From assembly GCF_030295385.1 (NCBI RefSeq), contig NZ_AP027079.1:3038001-3102000 (forward strand): a stretch of 64,000 bases of DNA, written 5' to 3'. A program made the position numbers and the translations under genes. Of the stretch, positions 39,608-42,618 are shown piece after piece. Numbering within the stretch: position 1 is the first letter of the stretch; each line of letters starts with the position of its first letter. The DNA comes from Geothrix oryzae. Lineage in GTDB: Bacteria > Acidobacteriota > Holophagae > Holophagales > Holophagaceae. The notes beneath the pieces are model-generated. The model searched no databases, was not told the DNA's origin, and saw only the letters and a list, made by a program, of their open reading frames with translations.

Positions 39608-40831
39608 TCAGGACTTGAGCTGGAACCTCGACAGGGCCGGCGCCAGCCACCAGAAGACCTGGAGCAGCAGGAAGACCAGCGCGGCCCATTTCAGGACGCC
39701 GAGCCAATCCACCTCGTCGGGCTGGGGTTGGATCCGCGACCGCCGGCTGGAGAGGTAGGTCTCCACGGGATCCTCCGCCAGGGTGATCTTCACGGGCTGG
39801 GTCCCCCGGGGGGAGGCCTCGATGGGGTGCGCGCCGGTGTCCCCCATGCCCAGCTCGGCGATGCGGAAGCGGGCCGTGGAGACGCTGCTGGTGCTGTCCT
39901 CCTCGTGGCCCAGCAGGGCGAAGAGCCGCGCCCGCAGGCTGACGGGGCCTGGCAGCGTGTCGATCAGCTCTTCCATGAACTCGGGCAGCGAGGTGTAGCG
40001 ATCCTCGGGATCCACGGACAGGGCGCGCTGGAACACGCCGGCCATGCGGGGGGACATGTCCGGTGGAATGGCCACGGGCTCCTGGAGGATGTGGATGATG
40101 ATGGCGGTCAGGCCTTCGCCGGGATGGGGCAGCTGGCCCGTGAGCAGCTCGAAGGCCGTGGCGGCAAAGCTGTAGCGGTCCGAGGCCGGGGTGCCTTCGC
40201 TGCCCTTGAGCACTTCCGGCGGCGCGTAGGCCGGAGACCCCAGGAAGTCCCCGCTGGCGGTGAGGCGCAGGGCCAGCGTCTGGGCCAGGGCCTCGGTGCC
40301 CCCGCCCAGCAGGAGGGTGTCCTCCAGCGGCCCTTCGGGATCCAGGCTCATGTGGCCCATGCTGCGGGCGATGCCGAAGTCCATGAGCTTGGCGCGCCCC
40401 TCCTCGCTGAGCAGGATGTTGTCGGGTTTCACATCACGGTGGACGATGGCCCGGCGATGGGCGGCCCGCAGGGCGCGCATGGCCTGGATCAGCACCCTTG
40501 CGCTGGTTTCCAGGTCCAGGTCCTTGTCCTTGATGTGCCGGCCGAGGCTCTTGCCTTCCACATACTCCATGGTCAGGAAGGGCCCCAGGTCCTCCTCCAC
40601 CCCCACATCGAACACCGTCACCAGGTTCGGGTGGTTCAGCTGGGCGCTGATCTCGGCCTCGCGGCGGAAGCGCAGCATGGCCTGGTGCCGGGCCGCGCCG
40701 GTGACGCGGACCACCTTGATGGCCACCCGGCGCTTCAGCAGGGGATCCTCGGCCAGGTAGACGGTCCCCATGCCACCCTGGCCGATGGGTCGCAGAATCT
40801 GGTACCGCCCGATGGTTCGTGGATCCGCCAT
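39608..40831 (-). CDS. Membrane-anchored Ser/Thr protein kinase (PknB-like)
   Basis: 407 residues. Kinase domain about 8-275: glycine loop GQGGMGTVYLAED, K39 (VAIKV), HRDVKPDNILL with D133, DFG at 151-153, and an activation segment of unusual length (about 158-190, including GPLEDTLLLGGGTEALAQTL) before SPAYAPPEVLKG. A juxtamembrane region follows, then one helix near the end (GVLKWAALVFLLLQVFWWLA), leaving almost nothing outside the membrane. So it lacks PASTA or another sensor. Divergent from the EF-P gene. Confidence 0.92.
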   Translation of the reverse strand: MADPRTIGRYQILRPIGQGGMGTVYLAEDPLLKRRVAIKVVRVTGAARHQAMLRFRREAEISAQLNHPNLVTVFDVGVEEDLGPFLTMEYVEGKSLGRHIKDKDLDLETSARVLIQAMRALRAAHRRAIVHRDVKPDNILLSEEGRAKLMDFGIARSMGHMSLDPEGPLEDTLLLGGGTEALAQTLALRLTASGDFLGSPAYAPPEVLKGSEGTPASDRYSFAATAFELLTGQLPHPGEGLTAIIIHILQEPVAIPPDMSPRMAGVFQRALSVDPEDRYTSLPEFMEELIDTLPGPVSLRARLFALLGHEEDSTSSVSTARFRIAELGMGDTGAHPIEASPRGTQPVKITLAEDPVETYLSSRRSRIQPQPDEVDWLGVLKWAALVFLLLQVFWWLAPALSRFQLKS

Positions 40832-40906: not shown

Positions 40907-41482
40907 ATGGCCGCCCTTCTCGAAGCCATTGCCATCAAGCGGAAGATGTTCTTTGAACTCGAGGACACGCCCTTCCACTGCCTCGATGTGGAAATCTCCA
41001 CCCCCACGGCCCGGGGCGGCCAGACCCTCGTCCGCATCAAGATGCGGAACCTGCTCACCCGCGCCGTCTTCGACAAGACCTTCAAGGCCGGAGACAAGTT
41101 CAAGGAACCCGACCTCGCCCTGGCCCCCGCCAGCTACCTCTACAGCGACGGCGACGGCTCCCACTTCATGGACCAGGAGACCTACGAGACCCACACCCTG
41201 GGCCCCGACCTCCTGGGGGACGCCCTCGACTACCTCACCGAGGGCCTCATCGTGCAGATCCAGAAGTTCAACGGGAACCCCATCGGCCTCCAGATGCCCA
41301 CCCAGGTGGAGCTGGCCGTCACCTACACGGAACCCGGCGCCCGCGGCGACACGGCCAGCGGCAATGTCACCAAGCCCGCCAAGCTGGAAACCGGCATCGA
41401 GATCAAGGTGCCCCTCTTCATCAAGGAGGGCGAGAAGGTGAAGGTGAGTACCGAGACCGGCGAGTTTGCAGGCAGGGCATGA
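40907..41482 (+). CDS. efp: Elongation factor P-family protein with an EfpL/YeiP-type PTARG loop
   Basis: 191 residues, three OB-like domains as in EF-P, which relieves stalling at polyproline. The body looks like EF-P (YLYSDGDGSHFMDQETYE, VELAVTYTEPGARGDTA, ETGIEIKVPLFIKEGEKV). The loop that in EF-P presents the modified Lys/Arg (PGKGQ or SGRN) reads TPTARGGQTLVRIK, in exact register with the PTARG loop of YeiP/EfpL. The tip residue aligned with E. coli Lys34 is Gly, preceded by Arg. No epmA, epmB, earP or deoxyhypusine-type enzyme gene is nearby. TAGAAT at 40875-40880 and GGAG precede the ATG; it overlaps rsgA by 4 nt. Confidence 0.88.
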   Translation: MAALLEAIAIKRKMFFELEDTPFHCLDVEISTPTARGGQTLVRIKMRNLLTRAVFDKTFKAGDKFKEPDLALAPASYLYSDGDGSHFMDQETYETHTLGPDLLGDALDYLTEGLIVQIQKFNGNPIGLQMPTQVELAVTYTEPGARGDTASGNVTKPAKLETGIEIKVPLFIKEGEKVKVSTETGEFAGRA

Positions 41483-42618
41483 ACCGGAAGTTCCGCCTCG
41501 GCCAGAGCCGCGAGGCTCAGGACATGGACCACCGGGAGGTCTACTCCCATGAGCGGGGGGGCGAGAGCAAGCGGCGCCAGCGCCAGGCCGAGCGGCTGGA
41601 GACCGGCATCGAGGCCCACGATGCCGATGCCCTGCTGCGGCTCCCCGATCCCGGCCCCTGGATGCACCTGCCCGAAGCCACCCTGATCCAGCGCCACAGC
41701 CAATGGGTCGACCTGGAACTGGAGGACCACAGCGTGCTGCGCGCCACCCTGGGCGGCAAGCTCAAGGGCGTGCGGCTCGTCTGCGGCGACCGGGTGCGCT
41801 ATTCCACCATTCCGGTGGAACCGGACGACCCCCGGCTCCCCGCGCCCACCCTCCCCCGGGGCGAGGGCGGGTCCCCCGCCGCCCAGGTGGTGGCCGTGAT
41901 GCCCCGGAAGACGCTGCTCAAGCGCGGCGGGATCGATGACCGCGAACCCTGGCAGCTCATCTGCGCCAATGCCGACGAACTCTGGATCTGCGCGGCGGTG
42001 GTGGATCCCCCCCTGCGGCCCGGCCTCCTGGAGCGGGCCCAGCTGCTCGCCCTCGACGCGGGGCTCACCTTCCGCGTGCTCGTCACCAAGCGGGACCGGG
42101 CCTCGAAAAAAGACACCCTGCCGGAGCTGGATCCCCTGCGTGAACAGGGCGTGGCCATCCACGAGACCGCGGCCCTCAAGGGCGAGGGGATCGAGCCGCT
42201 GCGGAAGCTCCTACAGCACAAGGTCGTGGTGCTGCTGGGCCACAGCGGGGTGGGCAAGAGCACCCTGGTGAACGCCCTCCACCCCGAGATGGCGCTGAAA
42301 ACCGGCGGGCTCACCAAGTTCGGCACGGGCAAACAGACCACCACCTCCGCCCGCTGGCTCCCGCTGCAGTCGGGGGGGACGCTGGTGGACACCCCCGGAG
42401 TGCGCACCCTCAGCGTCCGGGGCCTCGACCGGACCCTCCTGGCCCAGGTCTTCACCGAGTTTCCCTCCGAGGTGCTGGAGGATCCCCTGGCCTTCGAGGC
42501 GGGGGACGACGCCACCCTCGAGGCCCTGAGTCTGGATTATCCCGAGCGCCTCCAGAGCCTCCAACGGCTTTGGCAGGAGATGGACGACCGGAACCCCAAC
42601 CAGAATGTCTGGCGGTAG
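41479..42618 (+). CDS. rsgA: Ribosome small-subunit-dependent GTPase A, lacking the usual zinc knuckle
   Basis: 379 residues. Assembly GTPase that checks the 30S decoding region. An N-terminal basic extension (about 1-60) precedes the OB domain (HSVLRATLGGKLKGVRLVCGDRVR). The circularly permuted GTPase has G4 VTKRD, G1 GHSGVGKSTLVNAL, the RsgA G2 segment TKFGTGKQTTT and G3 DTPGVRTL. Normally a C-x4-6-C-x-H-x5-C zinc site follows; here the C-terminal 70 residues contain no cysteine or histidine. ATG overlaps the EF-P stop, so the two translation factors are co-expressed. Confidence 0.9.
   Translation: MNRKFRLGQSREAQDMDHREVYSHERGGESKRRQRQAERLETGIEAHDADALLRLPDPGPWMHLPEATLIQRHSQWVDLELEDHSVLRATLGGKLKGVRLVCGDRVRYSTIPVEPDDPRLPAPTLPRGEGGSPAAQVVAVMPRKTLLKRGGIDDREPWQLICANADELWICAAVVDPPLRPGLLERAQLLALDAGLTFRVLVTKRDRASKKDTLPELDPLREQGVAIHETAALKGEGIEPLRKLLQHKVVVLLGHSGVGKSTLVNALHPEMALKTGGLTKFGTGKQTTTSARWLPLQSGGTLVDTPGVRTLSVRGLDRTLLAQVFTEFPSEVLEDPLAFEAGDDATLEALSLDYPERLQSLQRLWQEMDDRNPNQNVWR

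Follow-up and report, generated by a model that had tools for sequence, protein, structure and literature searches.

EfpL (YeiP) of E. coli has the three-domain architecture of EF-P (PDB 8S8U; Sieber et al., 2024; PMC11611912). By the published definition, an EfpL consists of three domains only, carries a β3-β4 loop of more than seven residues with an arginine at the tip and a proline three residues upstream, and belongs to the EfpL branch of the EF-P tree (PMC11611912). The E. coli protein rescues PPN stalls in vitro; its tip arginine, R33, is unmodified, as determined by mass spectrometry, and the R33K substitution abolishes function (PMC11611912). EfpL predominantly co-occurs with β-lysylated EF-P, and Acidobacteria are already among the groups known to bear it (Sieber et al., 2024; PMC11611912), a caveat to the original prediction for the locus described here, which took EfpL to be mainly gammaproteobacterial. 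Asparagine tips have been mentioned for EF-P (PMC6544042; PMC11611912), and an E. coli EF-P in which the tip lysine was replaced by asparagine is inactive (PMC6544042). Our literature search yielded no functional work on a native Asn-tip EF-P.

The efpL gene and its arginine loop

We analysed a stretch of 64,000 nucleotides (the window; positions 3,038,001-3,102,000) of the Geothrix oryzae genome, which is complete and forms a single contig of 3.27 Mb. The window gene is, in all likelihood, an acidobacterial orthologue of EfpL (YeiP), working beside an EF-P with a seven-residue, asparagine-tipped loop that is encoded elsewhere in the genome. The features of the locus are as follows:

40907..41482, plus strand: efpL, EfpL-type EF-P paralogue of 191 aa (translation, three Pfam domains over cut-off, tree)
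40925..41101, plus strand: efpL domain I (KOW-like, EFP_N), residues 7-65 (Pfam PF08207, 56.5 bits)
41129..41284, plus strand: efpL domain II (OB), residues 75-126 (Pfam PF01132, 74.5 bits)
41306..41476, plus strand: efpL domain III (C-terminal OB), residues 134-190 (Pfam PF09285, 92.3 bits)
41000..41026, plus strand: predicted nine-residue β3-β4 loop of efpL, TPTARGGQT, residues 32-40 (sequence, gapless alignment with E. coli EfpL, predicted strands, silent codon variation)
41012-41014, plus strand: Arg36 codon of efpL, CGG (sequence)
41479..42618, plus strand: rsgA-like ribosome-biogenesis GTPase (TIGR00157, 110.6 bits, cut-off 100)
39608..40831, minus strand: divergent Ser/Thr protein kinase (best NCBIfam model NF033483, 258 bits, under the cut-off of 450)

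The product of efpL, here the window protein, comprises EFP_N, EFP and Elong-fact-P_C, each over its Pfam cut-off, and the Pfam search revealed no further family. Named relatives, 91-96% identical, come from Geothrix and other Holophagaceae (Acidobacteriota). At another locus (L119), what looked like a 604-aa EfpL fusion was traced to a stretch of undetermined bases in the scaffold and is no fusion.

The ATG of rsgA overlaps the efpL stop codon by four bases (ATGA), and the two genes are therefore probably translationally coupled. Of 66 Holophagaceae efpL loci, 65 have the efpL-rsgA pair and 62 have the divergent kinase, loci of a genome that is present twice being counted twice; the pair was found at none of the 103 other acidobacterial efpL loci, some of those stretches being short. 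Kinase and rsgA are conserved neighbours of efpL in Holophagaceae, and we claim no functional link of either to EfpL. Searches around efpL for RNA families, consensus promoters and consensus terminators found none.

As originally predicted, the loop TPTARGGQ aligns to the YeiP/EfpL loop without gaps: S-TPTARGGQT-L of the window protein runs along S-PTARGAAT of E. coli EfpL, whereas the canonical EF-P loop, PGK--GQA, leaves a gap of two residues. P33, A35, R36, G37 and T40 are invariant across divergent EfpLs, the E. coli protein (PDB 8s8u) included. An AlphaFold model, for which 33 sequences were aligned (pLDDT 88), shows strands at residues 21-31 and 41-48, which would leave a nine-residue loop at 32-40 with R36 at its centre. 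The window protein thus shows the loop features of the published definition (PMC11611912), that is, a β3-β4 loop longer than seven residues, an arginine tip (R36) and a proline three residues upstream of it (P33).

Across 48 distinct orthologues from Holophagaceae, residues 31-41 show no change at all (100% invariance), and all eleven of their codons vary synonymously. This silent variation rules out chance, a sequencing error or an isolated oddity as the source of the loop, and so disposes of the sequence error that the original prediction had weighed against itself. The median pairwise dN/dS over the same 48 orthologues is 0.13, and efpL is under strong purifying selection. The loop is common to 12 of 12 representatives of Holophagaceae, and a P[ST]ARGxxT loop was found at 103 loci outside the family, some of which may be one genome present in two collections.

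An asparagine-tip EF-P in the same genomes

The original prediction had raised the case of the window protein being the only EF-P of the organism. This is ruled out by a second EF-P gene in the source genome (G000:C1:335663-336226, equivalent to L001:1285-1848). Its loop region reads HQTPGNLPAR, with a loop of seven residues (PGNLPAR) and Asn34 at the tip. All 54 distinct genes compared from Holophagaceae share this tip (dN/dS 0.16), and in the tree the Asn-tip EF-P sits in a clade separate from EfpL. None of the 48 best-quality Holophagaceae genomes lacks an EF-P-family gene, and in most of them there are two. The Holophagaceae genomes of 0.9-1.2 Mb, from genus g2 (G001-G003; L061, L062, L063), have the Asn-tip EF-P only and no EfpL. 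That these genomes keep only the Asn-tip copy suggests that this copy acts as the housekeeping factor, with EfpL as an accessory, dispensable one.

In the second EF-P of Holophagaceae, a proline stands two residues after the Asn tip (PGNLP), at a position where the EF-P loop of Corynebacterium glutamicum (PGKGP) likewise has a proline; the other acidobacterial Asn-tip EF-Ps read have an arginine where the Holophagaceae loop has this proline. The proline may stiffen the PGNLP loop of Holophagaceae; a remark on this matter is also found in PMC11611912.

The pairing extends beyond the family. Of 297 acidobacterial genomes with a completeness of 90% or higher, 95 encode a match to the window protein with an identity of no less than 52%. 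Outside Holophagaceae, the second EF-P copy has an asparagine tip (PGNLRA, PGNLRG or PGNWRG) in all 34 EfpL-bearing acidobacterial genomes read; as these were drawn from the top hits of a query that itself had an Asn tip, the sample leans to Asn tips. Lys-tip EF-Ps are also present in the phylum, most of those read coming from single-match genomes; one genome (G116) has two matches, one of them with a Lys tip. Six acidobacterial genomes with a single copy were read, and in each that copy is the Asn-tip EF-P. Since EfpL mostly accompanies a β-lysylated EF-P (PMC11611912), the acidobacterial pairing of EfpL with an Asn-tip EF-P differs. Two further observations were made in the course of this survey. 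An acidobacterial EF-P (L156:242-952, genome G086) has the odd loop HVKIANRRAV, without the usual PG before the tip, and a contig labelled Acidimicrobiia (L196), probably acidobacterial and wrongly binned, encodes an EfpL that shares 74% identity with the window protein.

When Holophagaceae are compared with other acidobacterial classes, mean identity is 72% for EfpL and 44% for the Asn-tip EF-P; within Holophagaceae the respective values are 83% and 78%. The higher identity of EfpL between classes suggests that its gene was transferred between them. Alternatively, the Asn-tip EF-P of Holophagaceae may have diverged to an unusual extent.

Could EfpL nevertheless be the main polyproline rescue factor of the organism, the Asn-tip EF-P doing little at polyproline or having another role? 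The inactivity of the E. coli Lys-to-Asn tip mutant (PMC6544042) would fit such a division of labour, as would the strong purifying selection on EfpL and the failure of the searches to turn up a modifier for the second EF-P copy. The E. coli mutant, however, was altered at the tip only, whereas the native Asn-tip loops (PGNLPA, PGNLRA, PGNWRG) differ from it at several positions. Moreover, the Asn-tip EF-P is itself strictly conserved, with an invariant tip, and it is the sole copy both in the 0.9-1.2 Mb genomes and in all six of the single-copy acidobacterial genomes mentioned above. We regard a leading role for EfpL as rather unlikely, and favour an EfpL that works as an accessory beside the Asn-tip EF-P.

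Modification enzymes

The original prediction pointed to the lack of modification genes nearby and proposed a search of the full genome for epmA, earP and ymfI homologues. No modification gene was found near efpL or elsewhere in the source genome, the search for EarP having been run without a positive control. In the source genome, the best match to EpmA scored 253 bits, under the cut-off of 287, and this candidate of 503 aa proved to be LysS (690 bits to the LysS model). The best match to YmfI scored 210 bits, under the cut-off of 238, and proved to be FabG. Neither EpmB nor any member of the wider KamA family was found in the source genome in a search whose E. coli control was positive. EarP was found in none of 77 Holophagaceae genomes, an absence that is less secure because of the missing control. 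The window protein is therefore unlike a lysine-type EF-P, as its tip is R36 and the source genome yielded no EpmA, EpmB/KamA or YmfI, and it is also unlike an EarP-type EF-P, as its loop has nine residues with P33 and no EarP was detected. A second canonical EF-P together with its modification enzyme had been named as the evidence that would speak against the original prediction; a second EF-P does exist, but its tip is asparagine rather than lysine, and no modifier was found.

The function of EfpL in Acidobacteria can be described by analogy with E. coli. The Geothrix protein would rescue ribosomes at proline stretches, and Arg36 would act without modification. The expectation that the arginine tip is unmodified is probably correct, R33 of E. 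coli EfpL being unmodified (PMC11611912).

Bacterial groups differ in their known EF-P modification systems (PMC11611912; PMC6544042), so that the absence of the known enzymes leaves room for others, and Arg36 or the Asn tip might be modified by an enzyme yet to be described. We consider such an enzyme improbable, because the arginine of E. coli EfpL is active while unmodified (PMC11611912), EfpL keeps a proline that rhamnosylated EF-Ps do not have (PMC6544042; PMC11611912) and the 77 family genomes yielded no EarP homologue, albeit in the search that had no positive control. Turning to the pair as a whole, the chances seem to us evenly balanced that the relatives of Geothrix, and other Acidobacteriota with the same two genes, rescue polyproline stalls with two unmodified factors, an Arg-tip, long-loop EfpL and an Asn-tip EF-P.

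Family assignment and comparison with known systems

The window protein passes the NCBIfam models for EF-P (201 bits for the subfamily model and 195 bits for the equivalog). In contrast, it stays under the cut-offs of the EfpL model NF003392 (151.5 bits, cut-off 216) and of the YeiP model TIGR02178 (132.5 bits, cut-off 264). These cut-offs lie outside the published definition of EfpL (PMC11611912), and we infer that the NCBIfam EfpL models are too narrow, tuned to proteobacterial sequences, which would explain why database models label the window protein EF-P. The higher EF-P scores also account for the original impression of an EfpL-type loop on an EF-P-like body. Likewise, the best matches among solved structures are EF-Ps and not 8s8u, domain tilt being a factor that affects the structural score.

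In a maximum-likelihood tree of 94 sequences, 60 long-loop rows, including E. coli EfpL, were split from 34 short-loop EF-Ps with a support of 99. The window protein falls, with all the long-loop rows, in the EfpL branch of the published definition (PMC11611912). When the loop columns were removed, or when domains II and III were used alone, only E. coli EfpL, on a very long branch, left the long-loop group. With the long-loop rows held together, the likelihood was higher by 9.1 log units (without the loop) and by 6.9 log units (without domain I). These trees were quick and had few columns, so that a single long-loop clade that includes E. coli EfpL (p-AU 0.63 without the loop, 0.61 without domain I) is to be taken as not rejected rather than proven. 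As this clade is not rejected even without the loop or domain I, the body, too, is best read as that of an EfpL. In the trees of domains II and III alone, the window protein groups with long-loop sequences (two nested sets, of 39 and 46 rows, both starred). Its closest relatives have the intermediate loops SPSARGAST and SPSARGAAT.

The resemblance of domains II and III to ordinary EF-P, then, is one of score (201 bits for EF-P against 151 for EfpL, the latter below 216) and apparently does not extend to descent, and a chimera of an EfpL-type loop and an EF-P body is disfavoured by both the loop-free and the body-only trees. That an ordinary EF-P gained an EfpL-like loop, whether through convergence or through recombination of domain I, would agree with the higher EF-P model scores and with the EF-P structures as best matches, but it is very improbable in view of the placement of domains II and III, of the single clade with E. 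coli EfpL, which was not rejected, and of the intermediate loops. As judged from its sequence, the window protein is an EfpL by the published definition (PMC11611912).

Since standard models label them EF-P, EfpLs of bacteria other than Proteobacteria are easily overlooked. That EfpL is present in the phylum was already known; what remains of interest in this conserved acidobacterial EfpL is its pairing with an Asn-tip EF-P without a known modifier. The genomes with this pair, including the source genome, in which no known modifier was found, form a set of natural test cases for the need of EF-P for modification and for the role of an asparagine at the loop tip, in contrast to E. coli, which pairs EfpL with a β-lysylated EF-P.

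Compared with E. coli EfpL, the window protein has the same three-domain architecture, the same nine-residue PTARG loop with an arginine apex and a proline three residues before it, and likewise an EF-P with a shorter loop in the same genome. The two proteins are only about 32% identical, and GQ follows ARG in the window protein where E. coli has AA. In addition, the regulatory Lys51 of E. coli aligns with Val54, and the acylation control exerted at Lys51 is therefore not conserved. The partner EF-P has an asparagine tip here and a β-lysylated lysine in E. coli, and efpL adjoins rsgA. With the canonical lysine-tip EF-Ps of E. coli and B. subtilis the window protein shares the fold, the domains and the ability to pass general EF-P models, but its loop exceeds theirs by two residues and carries arginine in place of lysine, and EpmA/EpmB or YmfI were not found in the genome. 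The EarP-type EF-P of Pseudomonas aeruginosa (PDB 3OYY) also has an arginine at the loop tip; its loop, however, has seven residues and no upstream proline, and Holophagaceae (77 genomes) gave no EarP. Finally, the Asn-tip EF-P is encoded in the same genome as the window protein and, like it, is without a residue modified by known enzymes, but it has the seven-residue loop PGNLPAR and belongs to a separate clade.
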